Below, piece after piece: positions 8,594-25,645 of a stretch of DNA of 64,000 bases. The notes beneath the pieces were generated by a model that had not been told where the DNA came from, did not search any database, and saw only the letters and a program-made list of their open reading frames with translations. Made by a program: the position numbers and the translations under genes. The DNA lies in the NCBI RefSeq assembly GCF_964204645.1, contig NC_134027.1, positions 6,622,485 to 6,686,484 of the forward strand, given 5' to 3'. The stretch comes from Tubulanus polymorphus (lineage: Eukaryota > Nemertea > Palaeonemertea > Tubulaniformes > Tubulanidae). Position 1 is the first letter of the stretch, and each line of letters opens with the position of its first letter.

Positions 8594-11500
8594 TTACATA
8601 GCATCAAAATGAAACTTCTGGGCTTCTTGTAACTTTTCAATCTTATCTTCTCTCTGAAATCAAGGATAAATGAAGTTCATTTTCAATCATGCTTATGAAA
8701 CTGCAATAAGATTTTACGATGAGAGGGATATTCTTACCTTTTCTCTCCAGTGCAGAATTCCAACAATTCCAGCCACAAACCCACAAGTTCCAATCAGTGT
8801 AGCACCTGTATACAAGACTTGTTTATCATGGAGTGGTGATATAAACAGCTTGGAGACCCATCTATAAACAGAAATGTCATGAACAATTAGCATTTTTTAT
8901 CCAGTCTGGTGAAGAGACATATTCGGTGTCCTACTATACTCACGATCCTGGTACGTCAATTGGATATGGAATTATAATTATCTGTGAATTTGGAATGATA
9001 CTCTTCCAAGTTTTTGTTCTTTTCTGAAAGAAGTATTTACGGATTACAATTTGGTTTTCTTTGAAAAATATACATCAGATACATGAGGAATTGTAATCAT
9101 AAAATGCAGAGATATGATGAGCATTGAAATACAATTCAAAGTAAACTAACCTCTTTCTTTGGTGATGAGATACCAACTCCTAGTGATTCAACGTAATTTG
9201 GTGTTTGACCAAGTCCGAACACAGTATATGGCATTTGTAGAGCGAAATGGGTTGATTGTGATAGCTGGCCCTCTAATGAAATAAAACCATAATGTATTAA
9301 ACATCTATAGAAAGAAGAAAGGCATGTAAATGCAATTATGACGTACCAACTCCTTTGAGTAAATTGCCTTCACTATCATAAATCATGTAGTTAATCGTCG
9401 GCCCGACAACATTTGTCCCTTGTGGCTGCAATGAATGATGTGACAAACACATTCAGTACCTAACAAATAGCTATAGGCTACACACTGGCAGAATTTTTCC
9501 ATTTAATTTGTTAGAAAATCGATTCCTTACTTGTTCCTTTCCAGGGCAATCATCTAAACATAAGCCATTCACCACTGCAAATGCAAATAATGGAAAACAA
9601 TAAGCTATTGATAAATAAAATTATGTTAATGGTGGAATGGTATTGCAATGAACTTTATAGCACCTGGCATAATTTGGTCCCATCATGGTGCATTTTATTA
9701 ATTCATACCTGTTACTTTGACAAAATATGCGTCTCCATTAAAAGTGTGATAAAAAGCATGAAGACCTCCTTTTGGTCCACTATTATGAAGAAATATGTCT
9801 AATATTCCCTGGGAAAATACATTACAGACATTACATTTCAATTTTTTTAAAATATCATAATGTTGTATACTTGTACGTATGAAATTGTTTCACTTACATT
9901 TTCATAGATATCAAAGAAAGCAGCAACATCCACATTCTGAACATTACTGAGAGCTGGTGTGTGCCATTCTGCTTGAAACGTTCGTCGGATTTTACTACAG
10001 GCCCTTGTTGTACAAGCAACATTATTCAATATGAATGCTTTCTGTTGTACTTTCCTAAATATAATATGCCATTTGATAACAATAATCATAATTGTAATGA
10101 TGATGATGATAATGAGATTCAAATAGTAGTTAACCCAGTTCAGCTGCTCAGGAACTGTATTACTCCTGAGGTGTACAGTCGACTATAGGCCTATATGCTC
10201 TTACCCTTTGTTTTCTGTCCGTAACACCGCCAAAATATCTGGGTAGCCATCTAGATTAAAGTCACCCAGTCTCAAAGTGATGGGTATTCTTGGTTCAGTG
10301 GAAATCTTAGTTTTAGGTAGAGCAAAACCCCATGTCTGACCAGCTTCATCGGCTGGTATGGACTCCATCATCAAGCTCCAACTCCATTCACCCTAAAGTA
10401 AATTAGGTAAAACGTTTAAAGAGACTAGCAGGGATAACTGATAGAGATAACAATAGAGATTGAGATGCAGTTTTATCCATCAAAAGTATTCGGTACCTCA
10501 CTTGCTTGTTGAGAATGAACATATATCTGTGATTGATTACAATCTTTATCCAAGCACACCGGCAACAAATGATCAATCAATCCATCACCATCTGTAACAA
10601 GTATTTATGGCACAGGCGTTAATTGTAATCTTAAAGCTAAAAAGAATTGGCTATGTGTCTTTGAAGAGACTTACTGATGTCGATGAAAGCTGACTGGCCA
10701 ACTTGTTTTATTCCGTTGGTAGGCAATGAAATATCGGTGGAATTTTTCACAAAATTCCCATCCTAAAATCGCAAATTTTATTTGAAATCATGTTTGTACC
10801 AGTAGATATCGAACTATACTTGCAACTTAAAAATGAAAACCAATATGAAAAATGATTTGAGATCTATAGTGGCTTTTGACAACATTCATCCATACCTTAT
10901 TAATCCAATATTCAAATCTTATATGCTCATTGCCAGTGGCCTTATCTTCAACAGTCACCATCATATCTGAAAGGCCAATGCCAATATAGTTCACTAGATG
11001 AGAGTTCATTAATAGACCTATTGTAAAGCAATTAATTAAGCATAGAAAAATAGAATACCTGGAATGAGATCATTATTAAGATCAATAAAAGCGTTACAAC
11101 TCGGAAACTTGAAAGGAGCCATTGGCTTTCCTGGAAATTTTTCCATAGTGAAATTCCGGTGTCCTTTCCTGAAAAAAGGGAGCATAGAGCAAGAATAAAA
11201 ATAAACTGAAATATAGCTCCCAGGTTATTACAATGAATTATCCGCTGATGCACCTACTTTCCGCGCCAAACTCGCCGCATTCCACTCGAAATTTCACCAA
11301 ATATGTCAGTCACCATATCTCCATCATAACTGAAAATTCAATTTTGATGTCATAGTATCTCATCGTACGAAAAATAATAATTAGAGCGAATAGATATTGT
11401 TCATCGATCATAATCTCCATGGCTTACTCAAGTAATGATGGCTGATCTCTCAGCATTTGTGGCAATCTGTAGCGACCCTCTGAAAAAGATATGTAGCCTG

Positions 11501-13278
11501 TAGAAATTTTATGCTGAAGAACCAGTTTGGCCATTCACCTGTACCCTCTGCCACATTCACACAAATTAAAGTTTTCATTTCCATCAAAGAAGTGAACGAG
11601 CTTCAGATGTATCATTTTTGCTTAAACAGATTGATAAATGCATAGCTATACATACGAACACGATATCCAGTGTCAGTTCCCCAGTAAATATCTACAATTA
11701 CGGCATCTGGATTTTGATGTGATTGCCTGGTAATGAGAGTATCAGTGTGACCATCCCCATCAAAATCCGACGGCATTACACTAGTTATTCTTGTGTCTTT
11801 AGTTTCAGCATCGTCATTTTCGATCAACGTTTGTCTGAAATATTTTCCCTCCTTTTGACCGGCGACTAGTAGAACGCTTGTTCCTATATTGTACAAATGG
11901 TTGTTCATCAACATTACCAAGTAAGAACTTCTTCAAAAGAATAATATACCACAGGCACTTGAATATAGGCTTTGATAATGGAGAAATATTCAATAATTCA
12001 CCAGTGATATGTTATTCCTATTTCAATCATCTGCCAGGTTTCATAAAGAATTTATCAATGGTGCAACTATCTATACCAATACAAAAAGTAGGAGATGATC
12101 CTATCTCTGTAATGCTTAAATCTACCCGCAAAACTCGGAACAGCCAAACACTGCCGACGATTACCGAAGTATCAATATTTTTCTGAAATATGAGGAGCAC
12201 CAATAATTCCAATCCTATATAATTAATTATTAGACAATATAAACACTGTTTAAGTACTGTTCAAGATTATAAAATAATCAACATAATTGATCTTTATAAA
12301 TTTGCAGGAAGTATTACCACCAAATGCGTAGCAAGAGCGCTGTGTAGGAAATAACCCAATGCCTCTTTAGGATTGCTGTGATGTCAGCTGTTGGTAGTTT
12401 AGTGGGTAGATTTAAGCATTACCGAGATTGGAGCATTTCCTGCCTTTCTGTAATAGTAATAAGCATTTAGTACAGATAGATGCACATTGGATCATCGGTA
12501 AAACAGTTGTACCATAGTAAGATAGTTAAGACGGTGAACCTGATGAATTTCTTTTTTAAAAGTTCATAATTTTCAACACTCCAACAAGCTAAAATTCCAT
12601 ATTCAAGTGCCTGTGAATATACTGACATTGTTAGTTACGAATTACGAAGCCACCCAAAAAAATCGACCAAAATCTGATAATACTACTATTATAAGTAACA
12701 AAGTGGCTATTTTTACGTCGCCCGTAAGAATTTTACTTCCGGCTATATTTACGTCCGGGAAGGGATAGGTTTTTAGGGTAAGGTGAGGCTATATGTAGTT
12801 AAAACATTTGGCCGACTGTCAGCGAGCTCGGTGGTCTAGTGGTATGATGCTGCGCTAGTAATTTACTGGCCAGGGTTCGAGTCTCGCTCGATCCGCTCTA
12901 TTTTTCTCTAACTCTATTCTCCACACTTTCCTTGAATTTTCTAAGTCGCGCACCTCTGTACGCATGCGCGTCAGTTATTAGCGTACAGATCGCAGTTCCA
13001 TAGGTACGGATGTAAATATAGCCGGCAGTTAATTCTTACGAGCGACGTAAGAATAGCCACTTCGTCTTCGTATAATATAACGTAAAGACAAAGTACGTAC
13101 CATTATTTGTAATCACCAATAAATCTGCGTTTTTATCACCAGTGAAGTCCGCAAATGCGGCCAAAATACCATTATCAATTCCTCCTAATAGAGAACTCGT
13201 AACATCATTCAACCCTCCCTCCACTACCAATACGAGAGAAGCGCAGACTATCAACGAAAGTAATTTTTTTCTAGTCAT
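8594..13278 (-). CDS. ITFG1: ITFG1 / TIP / LINKIN, FG-GAP repeat membrane protein (complete, 17 exons)
   Basis: Type I membrane protein with an integrin-alpha-like beta-propeller; family members act in cell adhesion and were first described as T-cell immunomodulatory protein. Exons (transcript order): 13101-13278, 11656-11883, 11428-11479, 11258-11329, 11059-11168, 10896-11017, 10675-10762, 10497-10591, 10205-10392, 9898-10054, 9709-9808, 9531-9574, 9347-9425, 9151-9272, 8944-9023, 8738-8861, 8594-8653. Total 1899 nt, 632 residues (human ~612). Visible parts: signal peptide MTRKKLLSLIVCASLVLVVEG; FG-GAP calcium loops DFTGDKNADLL, DFDGDGHTD, DYDGDMVTDIFG, NGDGLIDHLLP and DFNLDGYPDIL; a Cys-rich segment with CTTRAC; one membrane helix at about residues 587-608; and a short cytoplasmic tail ending FHFDAM, as in the family. 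Every junction is phase-consistent. Confidence 0.95.
12701..13062. mobile_element. MITE-like element with ~57 bp terminal inverted repeats in ITFG1 intron 1
   Basis: The left end (AAGTGGCTATTTTTACGTCG and on to GGCTATATTTACGTCC) is matched as an imperfect reverse complement by the right end (GGATGTAAATATAGCC to ATAGCCACTT). The arms are ~57 bp and the whole element ~362 bp. No transposase and no clear target-site duplication are seen. It ends only 38 bp from the donor site of ITFG1 exon 1. The centre contains a tRNA-like stretch. Confidence 0.7.
12825..12894 (+). other. Degenerate tRNA(Pro)-like region (pol III A and B boxes) inside the MITE
   Basis: The A box TGGTCTAGTGG (12832-12842) and B box GGTTCGAGTC (12874-12883) are well preserved. 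The D-arm reads like eukaryotic tRNA-Pro. The acceptor stem has 5 of 7 possible pairs (one a G-U wobble) and the T stem 3 of 5, so it is not a working tRNA. It looks like a SINE-type tRNA-derived head captured in a DNA transposon. Confidence 0.6.
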
Positions 13279-13319
13279 TTTGTAGAAATTTGACAACCCG
13301 GAAGTAAATGAATGATGGC

Positions 13320-13450
13320 TGTCTGCAGAGTTTCCAGAACCTGTCATACAGGTCTTACCTGTCATGTCAGGTCCCGAAAAAACCCAAACTCACAACAATA
13401 TTTGACGAAACGGCGAAATATCTAGGCATGTGCTAGACGAATGGAAGAAC
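13320..13450. repeat. Dispersed palindromic repeat upstream of ITFG1
   Basis: Contains nested palindromes of the type CCTGTCATACAGG and CCTGTCATGTCAGG, then CCGAAAAAACCCAAACTCAC and a GACGAAACGGCGAAAT-like tail. A related block with the same order occurs at about 25405-25645 (CTCCAAAAAACCCAAACTCA, then GGACGTAAGGGCGAAATGG). The region lies just upstream of ITFG1 and may overlap its promoter. Confidence 0.55.
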
Positions 13451-13737
13451 ATTTTGAGTTAAATGAATATTCTGATCAGTCGTAAATATCGAAAATGATT
13501 CAACATTAACGTTAAGGAAAATGTTCTGACTAATAATTCATTTGAAAGGTTGATTTATAAGAAGAAAATATTTATGTGTAAAATGACTTATTTCTGTATT
13601 AAACTTAAAGGGAAAAAATAAGTTTCAGGCATAGATGAATTAATTAATGTAGAAGTAAGGGGATATTTTCGATAGCTGAATCGAGGTCTTGATATTTCGT
13701 TTCCGCAATAAGAAACTGAAAAATATCTGCTCACTAT
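13451..13737. other. Spacer between ITFG1 upstream repeat and the inverted-repeat element
   Basis: AT-rich sequence. I see no gene or RNA here. It ends in CACTAT, the putative target-site duplication of the next element. Confidence 0.4.
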
Positions 13738-14036
13738 TATGGAATACTATGGAATACCTCAAGGGCCATACGACTTACGAGTTACGTTTTACGAGTTACG
13801 ATTTACGTTTTACGAGTTACTTATACATTTCCTTGAATATTCGTTACGACTTCCGTTTTATGAGTTACGAATTACAACGAAAATACGTTTTACGAATTAC
13901 GAGTTACGATTTACGAGTTAGGTGTTGGAGTTTCGGTTCGCAAGAGTTCAAGGACAGTGGCCATGTGGTAGGCATTTCACTGTGTGGGTGTAATTATTAG
14001 ACGAATAACTGTAACGATGATGGATGGCTGTATGCA

Positions 14037-14273
14037 ATGAGGAGAGAATCCCACAATGATAATAAAAAGTCCGAAAATGAAACTTCGAGATAGTAGTTTA
14101 TTTCAACGTTTCGACTATATCCTAATAGTCCTTATTCCTGAAGATGACTATTAGGATATAGTCGAAACGTTGAAATAAACTACTATCTCGAAGTTTCATT
14201 TTCGGACTTTTTATTATCATTGTGGGATTCTCTCCTCATCGCGTCAACACGGATATTGTGTTCTACCTATCGT
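14037..14273. mobile_element. Head-to-head inverted insertion with 14 bp flanking direct repeat
   Basis: Two perfect 94 bp arms (14037-14130 and 14146-14239) surround a 15 bp loop. A 34 bp tail ending TATCGT follows. The direct repeat GATGGCTGTATGCA flanks both sides (14023-14036 and 14274-14287), the signature of a target-site duplication. Inside the right arm, CTGAAGA, a six-pair hairpin (GACTAT/ATAGTC) and GAAAC occur in series, resembling the conserved parts of a hammerhead ribozyme core. That, with the inverted layout, suggests a Penelope-like or related retroelement end, but no reverse transcriptase is present. A relative lies at 34466-34674. Confidence 0.7.
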
Positions 14274-14639
14274 GATGGCTGTATGCAGCCCAGTGTTTTC
14301 AAAAAATAAATACATTTTTTCTAAATTGATGAATCTTGTTCTAATTATCAAAATCATTTCCAGCTAAGATCTATTGAAATATCGTCTATTAAAATCATCG
14401 TGCACGTAACGGGACAGTCATCAGTCAGTGTGAAATGTATTGTCAGCATTTAATAGATTTTGAGAAGGTTCGCACAGCAGATGGCCAACGCGCAGATTTT
14501 TTGCCCTGTAATAGACCACTGCAGTCGAGATTGATTCACTATGTACAATAAATTACTCTTATCATGCTGTTTGAAATGACAATTCGACTTCATTTTGAAA
14601 CCCGTTCTTTGAATTACGCGCTTCGGATATCCGAAGCCA

Positions 14640-14845
14640 ATTAGTGAAAAACGTGTAATTCGTAAAACGTAAGTCGTAAATCGTAAGTCGTAACGTATGG
14701 AAGACCTCAGACGACATACAAGATATGAGATATAACATACGAGATATGAGATGCAACATACGAGATACGACATATGACATACGAGATACGACTTATTTAC
14801 AGTACGGGTGTCCGTCTGCTGGCGCCACCGCAGTGTATGTTTTTT
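14640..14845. repeat. Inner left arm of the ~3 kb element
   Basis: This stretch (GAAGACCTCAGACGAC, then ACGAGATATGAGAT-type repeats, then ACTTATTTACAGTACGGGTG and CGCCACCGCAGTGTAT) is the reverse complement of 16545-16690, with few mismatches. Confidence 0.7.
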
Positions 14846-16544
14846 CAATATTTACTGCATATAAATCGTTTAACATGGTGACGCGTACAGTCATCGTCAA
14901 TTATATGAAAACCAACATAGTCAACATTTTATTCAAACCAGAAATAGATTTCTTTTGGATAATGGACACCTGGACCGGACACAACGATATTAGGCCATAC
15001 TGTGAACACCCTGGACTAGGCGCGCCGCCGGCCGTTCCTCTCCCGCGGGCGACGAAAAGTTTTTCAAATCACAAAACTAAAAAGATATCAAACTGTTCAA
15101 GTTCATAATATTATGCTATTTCTTGTCTTCCTTTGGTCTTAAAACGGCCTGGTGTTCAGGAGCCGGGGTTCCGGTTACTCAATGCCTGCAGAAAACTACT
15201 GTTCACCGCCCGCCGTAACCGCCTGCTTTTCTGCATCAGAAATCAAAATTCTAAAAAAAACTCCGCAGCCGGAAATCCCGGCCCCCTTGTACCCCTCCTC
15301 CGCTGTTTGACACCCCTGCCTGAGTTCTTGAATCCCAAACAACCTGGGAACCCGTACATCGCCCTGGTATCCAGATTAAGAACTCCCGTGCTCTCTCTCA
15401 AGGTTTGAAATCCCCAGCTAAATTCCATCCCTATCGAGCTACTGGGGCAGACTGGTGAGTCCACTAGACCAGCCATTGAGAGTCGAGACTGGCCAGTTTT
15501 CGCTAACCGCCAGGGCAGTATGCGGTACTGTCTTTCTGAAGCCATAGTCTGGGGTCCTCCCCTGAAAATTTGTTCAATTTAGGTACTTGTGTATTCTGAG
15601 TGCTTTTTGGCTATCTTTCTTTTCTGACATCTTTCATGAAAAGGGCCAATGGCTGAATCTGAATAACTTTCATAATCGGAGAATCCAATTTAAGATCATT
15701 TTTATCAATTGTCATGGCCAGTTTTAAAACTGTTTATTGACAAAAGTACAGGAACCACATAAATAAGTCTTCAGCAAAACACAACAGCTCTTACATTTGT
15801 AAAGATAAGAGATCCATGGAAATATCAAGTAACATTTCTTTAGACAGGGGAATTAGCGGAACACCGGAACGTTGCTCGTATGGTGCGTTTGCACCCGTCG
15901 CAAAAAACGTCGTGATAAATGAAATCAGCTGGACTAGGGCCAGGAGCTGAGAGTGATACAATGGAACTCCATTCTGATATTTAATGAATAATTCATTCAA
16001 TAGATCTATGTTATCTTTAGTATTTTTAATTCATGTCCATGTTTCAATTCATTCGTTGAAATCATAGTACACTAAACACAGATTCCGCGTGTGTCGGACT
16101 TTTTTTTTAACTCTTTGGTCATCGGCATTCGTAATATACATACATCTTTCATTCTTCATCGAAAACCCTCGATCGAACGCGAAGTTTAAACCCTTGACTA
16201 GGCGCAATTCTTAGTGACCACCAATTTGAAGGGGCCATGGCTAACTCTTTTTGAGGGATTTTTGTACACTAAAAAATGAAATTTGAGGCGTTTTTGGTGG
16301 ATTTAGGGGCTGTAGCCCTGTATTTGGAGCCAACTCGAATCACCGGACCATCGGTGTCTCACACTAACAGTGGCCGCCCACTGACGTCACAGCGAGAAGC
16401 CGGTCCCCGGGAGTGGTTGATCAAATATTTTTAAATGTTTTTCGTTTCAAATGAAACGTTTTTCGCATATTGATATTCATAGTTAATGTATACGCCACTG
16501 CCTGCGCACGTGTCGTAGTATACGCCGCAACGCCGAGTAGATGT
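14846..16544. other. Interior of the ~3 kb element, no recognisable gene
   Basis: The part from about 15000 to 15560 is noticeably more GC-rich than its surroundings, with stretches such as GGCGCGCCGCCGGCCG. Its ORFs (for example 15133-15408 plus, 15243-15545 minus) overlap on opposite strands and match nothing I recognise. I see no DDE-type transposase or reverse transcriptase. It may be a captured segment or a worn non-autonomous core. Confidence 0.4.
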
Positions 16545-16786
16545 TGGAAAATATACACTGCGGTGGCGCTAGCGGACGGACACCCGTACTGTAAATAAGT
16601 CGTATCTCGTATGTCATATGTCGTATCTCGTATGTTGCATCTCATATCTCGTATGTTATATCTCATATCTCGTATATCGTCTGAGGTCTTCCATAGTAAC
16701 GTATTGTAGGAAATGTATTAGTAACTCGTAAATCGTAACTCGTAAAACGTAACTCGTAAGTCGTATGGCCCTTGAGGTATTCCATA
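16545..16786. repeat. Right terminal arm of the ~3 kb element
   Basis: Contiguous arm whose inner half pairs with 14640-14845 and outer half with 13738-13846. It ends in GTATTCCATA followed by CACTAT. Confidence 0.7.
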
Positions 16787-16958
16787 CACTATCACAGTGC
16801 GCCGGCATCACTCCTCACTGTCCCGAAGTCTCACTATTTATATTCATTGATGTTCATGTAAAAGAGCCGAATGCAATATAGAGACTGATTTTAAATCAAC
16901 TCATCAATTTAAAGCAAATTTGAAATTTTTCTTTCTATTTATATCAGTTTTAATGCAG

Positions 16959-17257
16959 ACCTGTCACCACAGGTCGCGAGAAATTCTGCAAAATGGCGCG
17001 AGCTGCCGTGTGAGGTCTCGCTTCAAAATTATTGCTTTACAGTAACTTAAGATTTAATCTATCTATGGTAAGCAATATATATTATACTCATTACTATAAT
17101 GAGACCAAAAAAATTAAAGTTTTCCTTCATTTCATCAGTTTAATAATGCAGACCTGTCACCACAGGTCTAGAGACGCTCTGCAAAATGGCGCGAGCTGCC
17201 GTGTGAGGTCTCGCTTCAAAACTTGTTTTATGTAACTTAAGATTAACCATATCCATG
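16959..17257 (+). ncRNA. Two tandem exon-like units (family X) upstream of the exon array
   Basis: Two copies, 16959-17067 (109 nt) and 17152-17257 (106 nt), each begin after a pyrimidine-rich tract ending in GCAG and end at ATG followed by GTAAGC or GTAAGA, so each looks like an internal exon. Both begin ACCTGTCACCACAGGTC (a palindrome) and share CTGCAAAATGGCGCGAGCTG and GTGAGGTCTCGC. The only ORF common to both is six codons long. Whether they are spliced to the array downstream is inference. Confidence 0.35.
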
Positions 17258-17712
17258 GTAAGAAATTTTTTTTTATGGCCTTATTAAAGTTCCACGATAT
17301 TGTTTAGCTGGCTACTGGCGTGTATTCAACCCGGCAGTAGAACCTTTTCATTCAACTTCTACTTTATAAACCCCCAAAATTTTCTAGTTTCTATTTATCT
17401 GAGTTGACCTCATTACCTGAACTACATTGAATGTGATTGGCTGTTTGTTTGATATACCGGAAATTCCGGGAACTTCTGATGTAATTGGGAAAGCCCCATT
17501 GGGAAAACCCAATGTGGAACCCAAAACAAAATGGCGAGCATTTCATTCGACTAGGTATCGTATGTTCGCTTATAATATGTTCGGTGTTACGAATATAACC
17601 GAGTAGGCTATTCTAGGTATATCATTTATGGAAATTATTATGATAAATTCTAAATGAAATATTTTGTCATTACAGGATATCTTCTTTTAATCATTGCAGC
17701 TAAATTTCAACT

Positions 17713-17790
17713 ATGAGAAAAACCCAGTTTGAGATCAACTACTCGTCTAAAATCGACCAACTGGAACAGTGCACAGATGAGGCCAACTAA
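17713..17790 (+). CDS. Recurrent 25-codon short ORF in the exon array (copy 1 shown)
   Basis: The ORF starts MRKTQFEINYSSKID and continues QLEQCTDEAN. It begins at the same place in seven of eight exon copies: starts 17713, 17936, 18159, 18702, 18929, 19172 and 19394. Copies 1 and 2 are identical. Copies at 18159 and 18702 stop after 15 residues (CAA to TAA). The 18929 copy has QTEQH in place of QLEQC. The 19172 copy loses one base near the end and terminates as TDRPTN. The 19394 copy diverges to KIYKLERCTEKART. Start-proximal residues are the best conserved. The two premature stops and amino acid changing differences make translation doubtful; no signal peptide or known domain is seen. Confidence 0.25.
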   Translation: MRKTQFEINYSSKIDQLEQCTDEAN

Positions 17791-18383
17791 CTAACCAACT
17801 AATAGGATAATCGCCGATTACCAAGCAATCATAAAAGGTAACTTGATATACATGGAATTATTTCGATAAATTCTAAATGAAATATTTTTTCATTACAGGA
17901 TATCTTCTTTTAATCATTGCAGCTAAATTTCAACTATGAGAAAAACCCAGTTTGAGATCAACTACTCGTCTAAAATCGACCAACTGGAACAGTGCACAGA
18001 TGAGGCCAACTAACTAACCAACTAATAGGATAATCGCCGATTACCAAGCAATCATAAAAGGTAACTTGATATACATGGAATTATTTCGATAAATTCTAAA
18101 TGAAATATTTTTTCATTACAGGATATCTTCTTTTAATCATTGCAGCTAAATTTCAACTATGAGAAAAACCCAGTTTCAGATCAACTACTCGTCCAAAATC
18201 GACTAACTGGAACAGTGCACAGATGAGGCCAACTTACTAACCAATTAATAAGATAATCGCCGATTATGAAACCAGCAATCATAAAAGGTAACTTGATATA
18301 TGTGGAATTATGTCGATAAATTCTAAATGAAATATTTTGTCATTACAGGATATCTTTGCTCATTTCAGCTAAATCCTATCTAT

Positions 18384-18521
18384 ATGAAACTGCCCAGCTT
18401 TAAATCAACGACTTATCAAATATCTACAGATAAGCTCCGCCCACTGAACAATCCAAGCTTGAATCAAATGCATCAACCAATTGTTCTAACCGATACTGAA
18501 CCCAGCAAACTTGAAATGTAA
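18384..18521 (+). CDS. Longer 45-residue ORF in the divergent fourth exon copy
   Basis: In the 255-nt exon (18349-18603) the aligned start gives MKLPSFKSTTYQIS and continues to a C-terminus EPSKLEM, 45 residues. The first part aligns loosely with the short ORF of the other copies (Met-basic, Phe, Tyr, Ile). It is not recognised. It may be the older form of the repeat or a drifted copy. Confidence 0.2.
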   Translation: MKLPSFKSTTYQISTDKLRPLNNPSLNQMHQPIVLTDTEPSKLEM

Positions 18522-20299
18522 GATGAGGCCAACTAGAATCCAATTTATCAACAAACAAACTTAAGATGATCCACGCCGATTACGAACCAAGCAATCATAA
18601 AAGGTAACTTGATATACATGAAATTATTTCGATAAATTCTAAATGAAATATTTTGTCATTACAGGATATCTACTTTTAATCATTGTAGCTAAATTTCAAC
18701 TATGAGAAAAACCCAGTTTGAGATCAACTACTCGTCCAAAATCGACTAACTGGAACAGTGCACAGATGAGGCCAACTAACTAACCAACTAATAGGATAAT
18801 CTCTGATAACAAACCAAGCAATCATAAAAGGTAACTTGATAGACATGGAATTATTTCGATAAATTCTAAATGAAATATTTTTTCATTACAGGATATCTTC
18901 TTTTAATCATTGCAGCTGAATTTCAACTATGAGAAAAACCCAGTTTGAGATCAACTACTCATCTAAAATCGACCAAACGGAACAGCACACAGATGAGGCC
19001 AACTAGAATCCAACTTATCAACAAACATACTTAAGATGATCCACGCCGATTACGAACCAAGCAATCATTAAAGGTAACTTGATATACATGAAATTATTTC
19101 GATAAATTCTAAATGAAATATTTTGTCATTACAGGATATCTTCTTTTAATCATTGCAGCTAAATTTCAGTTATGAGAAAAACCCAGTTTGAGATCAACTA
19201 CTCCTCCAAAATCGACCAACTGGAACAATGCACAGATAGGCCAACTAACTAACCAACTAATAGGATTATCACCGATAACCAAGCAATCATTAAAGGTAAC
19301 TTGATATACATGAAATTATTTCGATAAATTCTAAATGAAACATTTTGTCATTACAGGATATCTACTTTTAATCATTGCAGCTAAATTTCAACTATGAGAA
19401 AAATCCAGTTTGAGATCAACTACTCGTCCAAAATCTACAAACTGGAACGGTGCACAGAAAAGGCCAGAACTTAACCCAGCAATCTTTAAAGGTAAGTTGA
19501 TATACATGTAATTACCTGTATATAGAAATTTCAGTCCTCATATGAATATCATTTCATAAGTGGCTATCATCAAAATCTATTTACCGGTCCACATGGCTGA
19601 ACTTTTATCTTCACTAGTCTTAAACAGTGATGAACTAGTCCCACCTACTGCAATTAATTATTGGGGTTTAACTCAGCAATTGACGTCAATGAATTTTACT
19701 TTGTGTAAAACAGGGTGGCTTGTAATTTGAAATGACACGTAAATTATGATAAATCTGTCTGAAATGTTTTGCTTTCTTCACTTTGTTTCAGCCAAACTAC
19801 ATCTCGGAAAAATTGGGGGAATTATTATTGTCTGAAGAAGACACTCACAAGTAGATGAATACTGATCGACCCATTTGCTGATGAAAACTGCAGAAGTCCA
19901 GATGAAAAGTTGAGGAACCAGTTATGGATTAATCACTCAATGATGGATTCGACAATCGGCGGTTGATTTCTATAAAACATTAAATATCAGGAGCAGCAGA
20001 GACAATAGTGAATCTTATACACACTGATTCAAGCGACAAAGCTAATGAATTATCTCATAAACACTGATTCAGGATAAACACTGTTTTAAAAGCAGCAAAG
20101 ACTATAGTGTATCTTATTAGGAGCAGCATAGATAATAGTGCATGTTATAAACACTGAAATCCAGGAGCGGCGAAGACAATAGCGTACTTCTGTAGTAAAG
20201 TATTGATTTTTTGCTTATCACCTTTTTCAAACCAGTCTGATGGATGATATAGTGTTTTCGAGGAAAGTATTTGATAATGTTTATGCAATGTGAGAGTCT

Positions 20300-20305
20300 A
20301 ATAAA
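20300..20305 (+). terminator. Poly(A) signal of the exon-array transcript
   Basis: AATAAA follows a ~510 nt presumed last exon that starts after a strong acceptor (CTTTGTTTCAG, 19781-19791). Confidence 0.5.
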
Positions 20306-21261
20306 AGCTAAGCTCCATTAATTCAAGATATTGGTCTTCGATCCATGGTTGATAGATAAGTCTAGTTAAGTTAGTCACTAGGGGTAAATGGTTGTGTTGA
20401 GTGCCTAGTTTTGACTCGTAGGTCTGTTGAGTTAACTCCTAAACTGAGATATAGTTTCAACATGAATTGTGAGTTTAATCTTCCAACTTACCATAGTTAA
20501 ACATAGTCAACTGTGGCTATTTGTCCGCGTACATATCACATAGTTAGGAAACAGAACATAACATTAGACCAGTGTTGTACAAATATTAACTATTTGCTGA
20601 ATTGTAGATTTACAAATTTGATGGCATTGATATTTTCGAAGGTAACCAATTTGAAAAATTTGAAACGAATCGTAGATTTCGATTTAAGCCTCCATCAATC
20701 TGTTTGATGATCATATCTACGTACTTGAAAACTAAAGCTTTATCTGAAAGGAGACCATTATTTACATTTGAGAGGTATAGCTAGGAATAACAAGGCATAA
20801 AGTTATAGCTAGGACTAATTTTTAACGTTTTAACATTGTTTATAGCTGTTTGAACTTCTTTTATTGTAATGGGTAAATCCATATCACGAGATGGCTCTCG
20901 TGAATAATCACTTAGCTTCAAATTGGGTGTATAATGATTATTAAGGAGTGGCAGTGAATCAGTAGCGCTTTCTTAAAATGGGCCCAGAACTTTACAGTGA
21001 AAAAATGCCTGCAGTTGTAAATAGAGGAGTATAAATAATACATAACTACAAACTACAAGTACATAAATTAATTCTAAAAAATAAGAAAAAACCAATAAAT
21101 AATGAACAGAATAAACAACAATACAAACAAACATACAAACAAACAACAAATTAATATTCTATTTACATGAAAAGGCATTTTTTCAAATATTTATCAACAA
21201 GGTTCTTCATTTATCGAACAACCTTCCCTAAGTATAGCGAAAACCCGAGATCTTTTCTGTT

Positions 21262-21380
21262 GTTATTCAAAGCATTCTATCTACTCAGTTATTGTAATGA
21301 ACGAAACAAATAACCATAAACCTTTACTAAATCGAAAACATTTTAAAAAATAACTGATATGATAGAATGCTTTGAATAAC
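21262..21380. repeat. Short inverted-repeat element (119 bp)
   Basis: Perfect 20 bp inverted ends, GTTATTCAAAGCATTCTATC (21262-21281) and its reverse complement (21361-21380), around a ~79 bp centre. It looks like a minimal MITE or a solitary snap-back repeat. Confidence 0.6.
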
Positions 21381-21603
21381 TGTGATCAAAGATCGACCCG
21401 TCCTTTCAACTAGCCGCGCTCAATCACTGCTGTGACTGTTTATTGTTATACATGGGTAGACTTACTATCTAAAATGTGGTACATACATTTTACTTTTTAG
21501 AAAGAATTTAAAACAGCTATAAACTTAAGTTATTGATGTTATTGATTAGTTACCGATTGTATAATTATGTTGAAGCTGCCAGGAAAAACGTCAGAATACT
21601 TAG

Positions 21604-24290
21604 TATGTAATGTCAAGGTGTTTGGAAATCTTTAAGACAAGGCAAAGTTGGCAAAATTCTAGTTTTCCAGTGAAAGTAATGATTAATTGATACTAAAGAG
21701 TTCCAGAGTGAATCTGAGTTTCTCATCTCTAGTTTTAATGTTAGCTTTTATGTTGGAGACTTATTGTAACACAGTTCACGTGTTTGTAAATTAGGAACTT
21801 GCATGACGATTCCTCGGTTAAGATATTATTGTTGCGTGAATAAAACGATGTACATTTTCATCATTCATGTTAAAACTTTTCAGTTAGGCCTAAGTTTTAT
21901 AGCAAAAATTTCACTTTGGTGCTTTTCAGTGGTTCACAAAATACTGATCTAATCAAGGCCCTGTCGAAAATAGCGAGAGCATAGAATAATTGTCCTAGCT
22001 TTGTTTTGATTATCAGTTTAACCGCGTCCGTGTGGGGCCTGTAATATCTGGACAAGAAGAATTTCTGATCTTTATAAAGAGTTGTATTTATATCTACTAT
22101 CAAGTTAAATAAAAAACAATTAAGAAGTTACCGAAGCTTCGTCAATCAAACCATATTTATTTGAAGATACTTGATTTATCTTAAATTGTGACGAAGAAAA
22201 ACCTTTTTAATAGTATGCAGGCTTCGATCTGAGGAATAAATGCCACTTGACCTTAGGGCAAGCATATACCGGTATGTAATATCACTTGCCCCCTCAAAAA
22301 TCAACTTGCTCTACATGAATAGTCCGATTGTGACACAATAATCCCTTGCATCGAGTGGGATAAAAGCTTTGAGACATAGAATTACACAAGCCCGGTGGAT
22401 GAGTGATTATAATAACCTTCATGCCCTAATGAAAATATACTTGTCCCGGGCAATTGGACTAGTGCTTAAATCAGACCCTGCTTTGTTTCAAATGTAAAAT
22501 TTGTGAAAAAGTAGTTAATAATGTTTGAAGAAATCTCTTAAAGACGAGGAAAATTTGGCAATGTTTTTAGTTTTCTAGTAATAATTAGGATTAATTAGTT
22601 AACCTTACGCTTTCCAGAGTGAGTGAATTTGTAGGTTTAATGTTTTTTGACGCCTTATAAAACGTTACCATTATGAAACCTAAACAATGTTAACCATTCA
22701 GCGTCATTTTACAAACGACAGCCGTAAATCGATGTGCAAAACGTCACAGGTCTATGTGTACACAAACAAGCTATCTGGCAAAATATTATTGACATAGATG
22801 TAGAATGGCTTCCTGTGATTATATAATGACCTATATTTGAACGTCGAAATGTTATATTGCATTGAATATCATTAGAAGACGTATTGTAATAGTAAAGGAT
22901 GTATGATTATATCAGAAGGGGCAGGCATAAATAGAAATGATAAGTAAATCGGATTATTCGGTTAAATGGCGGATGTATACACGATTTGGAAGTCTGATAT
23001 AAAAGTCAGACCCTGACGTGGGCATGCCGGTGGAATGACGAAGCTATCTACGATGTGTGTAGGGCCGGCGTGAATTTCATCAGCGGCTAAAAGCGGTCAA
23101 TATGAAAATGTGTAAACATATAATTTCAATATTCAAACGTTTTAGAAAATATGTTTGATATTAGGAGTATGCAGGTTTCGTGAGATTAGCAATTTATAAT
23201 AGCATAGCTATCATATACGGCTCCGCGTCCTCTGATGGCATGTGTATTAGGTGACAATTCAATTCAATTCTTTATTGATCCTTATTACATTGAAATTTCG
23301 GGATAAAATTCCCAAATTCAATAAATACAAATTTTAAAATAAATTAATACAACATACATGACACACGGGTAATTCATACAGAACAACATAAGCATGTTAT
23401 TTTAAATGACAATGTCTACTTCAACCCACCCAGACTCAAGACTCTAGGATTTCGAGTGACAGCCAAACCCGTGGCCCGGGCCGGCTGGCTAGGCCACACG
23501 ATATGCTCGAAGTCATGATGAAGCAGACATCAGAAGAGCTCGTTCTTCAACCATGGAGGCAATGAAGTTGCAGACCAGCTTAGAGGCATAAGTAAATGAA
23601 GTCGGTCGCAAGTTCGCGATCAATTATTGAGAATTGTCAATAAAAAAATTTAAACCACTACTAGAGTCGAAGACCCGCTGTATCATCTACCCATCATTCC
23701 CCAAATTTCTTAAAACTTCGATTTCAAATTTGCAATTCCACATTAGCTTAGCCCAGAAATTATACATTTTTTTCGCAGGCGTCAAATAATTTTCTAAAAT
23801 TAATTTTCTTGTTTCTTGATAATTAAGATGTCCTCAATCTCGATGTCATTTGAAAAGTTGATGATGATAGATTCATATTTCATGAAATATAACAAAGTGT
23901 CGGTTATATTGACCTCATGAATTGTCAAATTCATAATCTTAGACTTTCAGACTAGTCCTTTTTTCGGTGTTTTATGGATCAAAATTTATAATTCTTTGTG
24001 TATTTTCCCATTGATGCAAATTGTATGAATCAGCTGTAGTGGAAATGTATCATATATAAACACTTATAAGTACCTTACATGTAACTTTTGTGATTTTAAA
24101 GTTAGTACAATTTCATACAGAGTAATAGAAATAAAATTGCTACATGTATTAAAATTTGAGAAAATAGCTAAAAGTTAATAATTTGATATGTGAAAATAAA
24201 CTGATGTTAAGAATGTAAATCAGATTGATTAATCCTACGCTTTCCAGAGTATTTGGCCAGGTTTATCTCTGGTTTTAGTGCGGGGGCCAT
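21604..24290. repeat. Degenerate interspersed repeat, three copies
   Basis: Copies near 21600-21740, 22510-22640 and 24190-24290 share ATTAATT, the block CTTTCCAGAGTGA (or near variants) and a following TAGTTTTAATG-like segment. The first two also share an AAATCT-TTAAGACAAGG-like start. They are too diverged to assign to a family. Confidence 0.4.
23255..23400. repeat. AT-rich retroposon-like tail
   Basis: Begins CAATTCAATTCAATTCTTTA, followed by ATTGATCCTTATTACATTG and a long A-rich stretch. This is a common form of the reverse-complemented 3' end of non-LTR elements in invertebrates. No coding part is present. A similar A-rich stretch lies at 21020-21170. Confidence 0.35.
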
Positions 24291-25404
24291 GGACAATTGA
24301 GTCCATGGTTGGGCCATAGACTTTTTTGTCTTAGAGTCTATGTTTGGACCAAGGGGCGTATAAACACTCATTTATAGTTTATACGCCTATGGTGGTTGGA
24401 CTAGTTGTTTTTTGAAAGTCCACGTGTTTGAGGAGCTTACGTTTTAATTCCTCGAGCAATCCTGGCATTTTGTATAATTGTTGTATGAGAATAAATATGA
24501 TTTTGAAATTTGTCATTCGTTGAGTTAAGCAACAAGTGTTACTAAAACGAAGCACTACTAAATAAAAAGACTATATGCACCAGAGAAAACCGACCAATTT
24601 ACGTTTCACATGCATTTGTTTATATCTGGTATTGCCTACACTAATTAGCTGAGGTGGTTGAATACACAGATAGCACCCCTAGTGATGATTTCTAATGAGT
24701 GCAATAGCTCATCGGACTTCGTTTTAGTCATGCATAGTTCTTACACCTCTAAGTGCATAGGTCTTAGTTTTAGTAGTGCATAGTTTTAATAACACCCCCA
24801 TTTCACTGCCCTTCTATTAAATTCACTGCTTTTCACGGCCGGTCCGTGAATCATTTACAAACCCTGGCAGTTGAATCAGATGCAGTTTTCTGGAAAACTT
24901 TTAACAAGGCCACCACATGAGGTACGTTTTTCATATACAGTACGCTCACAGATTACATCGCAGCGAGTCTTGTGGCGCGCACGTCTGTGAAGCACGGCGG
25001 AATATACGTGAAGGCGCATATTCTTCTGAACAAAAAGTAGTTTCAACGACAAATAGATTGATTCATGTGGATGCCCGAGGCCTTCTTTGATGGTAAATTA
25101 TGTGATATGATATAAAATAAGTGACGCATTCTGATGAATTCAATAGGGAAGAGGAGATGGAGAGGGGAGTCTGTAATTCAACGGGAAAAGTTTCAAAAGT
25201 TTGAAGAACACATGAAGATGCCAAAAGCAAGATGAGCTTAGATTATCCTGGTTGTACCGCCTGTTTTTGAATAATATATTCAGAAAGCACTACGATATGT
25301 TCTTTGTGTTCTCATCGGCTTTCATGTGTTCTAAATCCGCGCCTATCATGTCTTCTAATCGCCTATCATCGGTTCAGTCATAACGATTCTCATTTTTAGC
25401 GAAT

Positions 25405-25645
25405 CAACCTGTCACCTGAGGTCCCACGTCATGTCAGGTCTTGGGCCCTGACATGACAGGTTCTGGAGACTCTGGAAACTCTGCAGACAGACCTAAATCA
25501 AGTAAATCGGAAGTCGTCGAACGATGCCTACGCAGATCTGTCACTACAGGTCTCCAAAAAACCCAAACTCATTACTATATATGGACGTAAGGGCGAAATG
25601 GTTATTCATATGTAAGACGTATTTAAGAAAATATGGAGTTGTATA
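25405..25645. repeat. Dispersed palindromic repeat, second locus
   Basis: Contains CCTGTCACCTGAGG, the paired ACGTCATGTCAGG...CCTGACATGACAGG, and CTGTCACTACAG, followed by CCAAAAAACCCAAACTCA as at 13371. The part CTGGAAACTCTGCAGACAG matches the reverse complement of the block at 13320 (CTGTCTGCAGAGTTTCCAG). Confidence 0.55.

Follow-up and report, generated by a model that had tools for sequence, protein, structure and literature searches.

The window, as we call the whole 64,000-nt stretch of Tubulanus polymorphus contig NC_134027.1 that was analysed, contains exons of a G-patch gene (PF01585; 3990–4415) and of a formyltransferase-domain gene (PF00551; 50546–50872). It also contains an array of tandem cassettes with the layout of a spliced gene (Table 1). 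Direct reading and unit alignment place eight acceptor–exon–donor cassettes at 17676–19491, with seven 61-nt GT..AG introns between them, exactly where the original prediction had put them. The acceptors read TCATTACAG and the first seven donors GTAACTT, while the eighth donor, GTAAGTT, is stronger than these. TRF scores of 1308 and 1328 put the repetition of the cassettes far beyond chance. An upstream donor at 17555 (with an alternative, TC/GTATGT, slightly downstream), a long last intron ending in the acceptor TTTGTTTCAG, and a poly(A) signal frame the array, and the gene-like layout first proposed is in this respect confirmed.

Table 1. Features of the cassette array and of the repeat that carries it (positions in the window; splice-site positions by direct reading).
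Feature	Position	Strand	Details and basis
Left scrap of dispersed element	17267–17346	+	Matches BIG8 9379–9460 (L053/L044), L041 793–837, L028 174–252
Right part of dispersed promoter/exon-1 block	17361–17613	+	CCAAT-like boxes, AAAATGGCG; ends inside intron 1
Putative exon 1	17480–17554	+	Direct reading, start inferred; donor TAG/GTATCG at 17555
Cassette exon 1	17676–17837	+	162 nt; acceptor end 17675, donor 17838; reading and alignment; start 17700 if second AG used
Cassette exon 2	17899–18060	+	162 nt; acceptor end 17898, donor 18061; alignment
Cassette exon 3	18122–18287	+	166 nt; acceptor end 18121, donor 18288; alignment
Cassette exon 4	18349–18603	+	255 nt; acceptor end 18348, donor 18604; alignment
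Cassette exon 5	18665–18830	+	166 nt; acceptor end 18664, donor 18831; alignment
Cassette exon 6	18892–19073	+	182 nt; acceptor end 18891, donor 19074; alignment
Cassette exon 7	19135–19295	+	161 nt; acceptor end 19134, donor 19296; alignment
Cassette exon 8	19357–19491	+	135 nt; acceptor end 19356, strong last donor AAAG/GTAAGT at 19492; direct reading
Long last intron	19492–19791	+	300 nt; final acceptor ends 19791; direct reading, copy comparison
Last exon	19792–20320	+	AATAAA at 20300; at least 40 dispersed copies at 84–95%
Further element body	20321–22647	+	At least 40 scored copies, 1161 candidates
Separate repeat nested in element, 1.16 kb	22648–23811		Absent from L036 and L033; elsewhere in L027
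Element body, continued	23812–25247	+	Copy comparison
Short high-copy MITE-like repeat adjoining element	25262–25498		Many copies at 90–93%

The array lacks coding potential. No reading frame is shared across the cassette exons, whose lengths are of mixed phase and which have stops in all frames, and the longest ORF of the spliced transcript is 64 aa (mononucleotide shuffles: mean 54 aa, 95th percentile 83). A protein-coding or repeated-domain gene is rejected because the exons are neither open nor phase-compatible, as had been foreseen. A polycistronic micropeptide gene, which had also been suggested, would carry MRKTQFEINYSSKIDQLEQCTDEAN in each cassette, and a 25-codon ORF does come back in several of them; however, the ATG occurs in that context in only 17 of 105 units, several of these 17 are interrupted by stops, the ORF falls short of the longest that the transcript would contain by chance, and exon lengths keep no constant phase, so that such a gene has next to no credibility. 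A snoRNA, tRNA, or other known RNA in the array is likewise rejected, since no Rfam family matches anywhere in the window, and no RNA fold of exon or intron rises above chance (z −0.02 to −0.67).

A search of the 268-Mb genome, in which the 12 largest contigs are chromosome-sized, reveals that the cassettes are dispersed. One unit yields at least 256 matches, up to 99% identical, on contigs C1–C10 and C55, and the matches listed define at least 38 array loci. The last exon with its poly(A) region and the downstream segment 21200–22647 are each present in at least 40 scored copies (1161 candidates for the latter), mostly at 84–95% identity. Tandem units at many unlinked loci share nonrepeat flanks, flank comparisons find ends and truncations common to copies, and the order of parts is the same in each array locus fetched. 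This constant order argues that the module moved as a block with its introns kept, and a module that kept its introns would have been copied as DNA, not through spliced RNA. Tandem amplification is equally evident, with the number of units varying from about 2 to 28 per locus. The original prediction treated the array as a single special locus, giving rise to a lncRNA or to circular RNAs, and had itself named occurrence of the unit elsewhere in the genome as a finding that would speak against it. The gene model in the window does look complete, but the same unit and its flanks recur at all these loci, which refutes uniqueness; a single-locus origin of this kind is very improbable, though an RNA from the locus could exist.

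The array sits in a long noncoding repeat that spans about 8 kb of the window and at least 10 kb in fuller copies and that extends through the 3′ exon and its poly(A) signal into the DNA downstream. Relative to other copies, this one has lost about 2.2 kb, so that the scrap at 17267–17346 is joined to 17361. Another copy of the nested repeat (Table 1) sits within array locus L027. A diverged subfamily, represented by BIG8 (L053, L044, and L054) and BIG4 (L056, L045, and L055), which are 97% alike, has a single unit and is ~72% identical, with the intron/exon layout unchanged. There is no ORF longer than 104 aa inside BIG8 8729–21085, and the Gypsy-like ORFs in L037 are rejected as the element's own, as they are not common to other copies. 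The ends of BIG8 are also rejected as clean element termini, the same ends being internal to other copies. On the left, the element continues beyond the block shared among copies. On the right, BIG4-type copies end in AACTCATAATG, with a hairpin and without CTRR, and this end is part of a terminal repeat that is very common (1697 candidates) and known here from BIG4-type copies. Copy comparison indicates that the window contains one degenerate copy of a large dispersed, TE-like repeat. Transposition would be the means of spread; segmental duplication is an alternative, given that neither a transposase nor terminal inverted repeats nor target-site duplications could be established in the array-bearing element, which was followed to points short of its outer left end.

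The promoter/exon-1 block has a distribution of its own, with at least 40 scored copies among 312 candidates. Many of these have no array, and many have other DNA after ~17613, where the boundary was aligned. Judging from its motifs, 17361–17613 may act as a Pol II-like promoter. In arrays without the promoter block, intron 1 opens with CTTAACATG/TAAGTTTATTTTTATGG, i.e. the original first-exon donor, which indicates that in the window's subfamily the promoter block was joined into intron 1 and replaced the upstream first exon; despite this swap, intron 1 retains a donor upstream. Cassette exon 4 is probably a fused exon, because it contains AACTTGAAATGTAAG, which resembles the stretch around the first-exon donor in copies that lack the promoter. 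At another locus, the promoter block lies upstream of both a different tandem repeat (period ~154) and what we take, from our reading of the sequence, to be a beta-galactosidase-like exon (L040, 3195–3776).

Comparison of 105 units from 15 array loci reveals how well the splice signals are kept. A second acceptor-like site, TTTTAATCATTGCAG, lies at unit position 85, 24 nt past the first AG (position 61), which is the acceptor originally predicted. The AG at position 85 is intact in all 104 units in which it was scored, whereas breaks of the first AG affect 8 units, from several loci. Because the second AG is the more constant, true introns may be ~85 nt rather than 61 nt, if splicing occurs, but by itself the constancy of an AG counts for little, given that 12 of 162 unit dinucleotides are invariant anyway. 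The GT donor is intact in 89 of the 105 units, and all 16 exceptions, with GA instead of GT, fall in one array of ~26–28 units (L031; G000:C8:247000-256900), where one broken-donor unit was amplified. Beyond the unit, the last-donor window is 0.6% diverged among copies, compared with mostly 2–10% in neighboring windows, and the poly(A) windows are ~3% diverged. The diverged subfamily retains the GT and both AGs of the unit; a deletion has removed the last donor from BIG8, and L026 has no exon-1 donor.

Length differences per bp between loci are lowest in the intron (0.0001–0.0055), rise over the initial ~100 nt of the exon (0.006–0.015), and peak in its last ~60 nt (0.018–0.029). Specifically, in the 105 units the donor and the stretch of intron immediately upstream of the first acceptor show few substitutions and few length changes, the exon's first 24 nt show few substitutions, and change is greatest in the exon's last 60 nt. 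The claim that exons drift and introns do not is therefore right only in part, the first part of the exon being intermediate. All seven introns with intact signals are present, but they stem from one ancestral intron multiplied by tandem duplication, and near-identity that results from duplication of the unit makes them one observation, not seven. The evidence for selection on splicing, at which the original prediction had hinted, is mixed: the second AG, the last donor, and the poly(A) region are well kept, but 16 of the L031 donors are dead, the first AG is broken in places, and BIG8 and L026 have each lost a donor.

Among the best-scoring matches listed, 30 of 38 array loci lie in the outer 40% of chromosomes (KS, P = 1.7e-6), whereas copies of the promoter block alone lie toward the centers, with 1 of 23 in that outer zone (Mann–Whitney, P = 2.8e-9), figures that describe a trend on the closest copies. 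Decaying TEs are not usually found in chromosome arms. This strong bias toward the arms would suit a multicopy family of functional spliced lncRNAs, spread by duplication in gene-rich arms, in which promoter, cassettes, and splice and poly(A) signals are selected; so would the layout kept in the ~72%-identical subfamily, the invariant second AG, the well-kept last-donor and poly(A) windows, and the upstream donor that survives the promoter swap. However, the dead GA donor was multiplied in 16 units of L031, donors were deleted in BIG8 and L026, the first AG is broken in several loci, and RNA folds have z near 0, and we regard such a family as quite unlikely. It also seems doubtful that we are dealing with a mobile family of multi-exon noncoding genes, i.e. 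a TE whose satellite is a spliced cassette selected for splicing, with exchangeable promoters, kept in the arms, and producing repeated-exon RNAs from dozens of copies.

The reading we favor, with a probability of roughly 80%, is a TE-embedded satellite array with a spliced-looking, noncoding, gene-like architecture that is plausibly transcribed, although array copies in chromosome arms and the modest conservation of signals, set against the share of invariant dinucleotides, count against it. On this reading, one ancestral exon with its intron was repeated side by side to the unit numbers seen today, probably through unequal crossing-over or slippage during replication. The whole module (first exon, cassettes, long last intron, and last exon with poly(A) signal) spread as DNA, introns included, and in the window's subfamily a second dispersed repeat, which brought a Pol II-like promoter together with a first exon, was grafted into intron 1, with a usable donor kept upstream of the array. 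The array would, on the same reading, be transcribed and spliced.

Satellite arrays inside TEs are well described, especially in the centers of Helitrons and Helentrons (review PMC12628747). As there, outer parts are shared, the central short-repeat array varies in number, and copies are mixed, nested, and truncated; unlike there, the unit here consists of intron plus exon with usable-looking splice signals in a promoter-to-poly(A) layout. Helitrons also have characteristic termini (5′ TC and 3′ CTRR, or Helentron-type ends, with a 3′ hairpin and no target-site duplication), and the array-bearing copies were followed here to points short of their termini. The SNORD116/SNORD115 host-gene arrays of the Prader-Willi region, with their repeated noncoding IPW exons (PMC4742849), resemble the present case in having noncoding exons tandemly repeated with introns between. 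By contrast, they form one imprinted locus with intronic C/D snoRNAs, whereas here the introns are 61–85 nt, none carries a snoRNA recognized by Rfam in the window, and the module is dispersed genome-wide. Introner elements place introns of near-identical sequence in many host genes (PMC3488318) and are similar in their repeated, near-identical introns, but here exon and intron are duplicated together within one dispersed repeat. Our literature search on tandem exon duplication in TE-derived lncRNA found no matching case. The locus thus appears to combine a TE-embedded satellite with tandem noncoding exons, the satellite unit being an exon–intron cassette.

A convincing gene model can therefore arise from a repeat: tandem duplication carries splice signals along in bulk, so that introns repeated in this way do not count as separate evidence of function. 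Should the array be transcribed, its product would be a spliced noncoding RNA with a variable number of repeated exons. In that case the natural copies, at least 38 in number, which differ in cassette number (~2–28), in whether their donors are intact or dead, and in which of two promoter types they have, could be compared to learn at what point a satellite turns into spliced RNA and whether splicing has a bearing on the spread or control of the repeat.

Other repeats lie upstream of the array. An inverted repeat of 148 nt (14696–14843 and 16548–16695), 97% complementary with its arms 1.7 kb apart, is built of a 7/14/21-bp minisatellite of ACGAGAT type, and 14696–16695 looks like a TIR-flanked element. 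Closer to the array, a ~160-bp repeat occurs as two direct copies (16916–17076 and 17111–17266; 84%) with the palindrome-like CAGACCTGTCACCACAGGTC, and a similar motif is also found in the repeat at 25262–25498.
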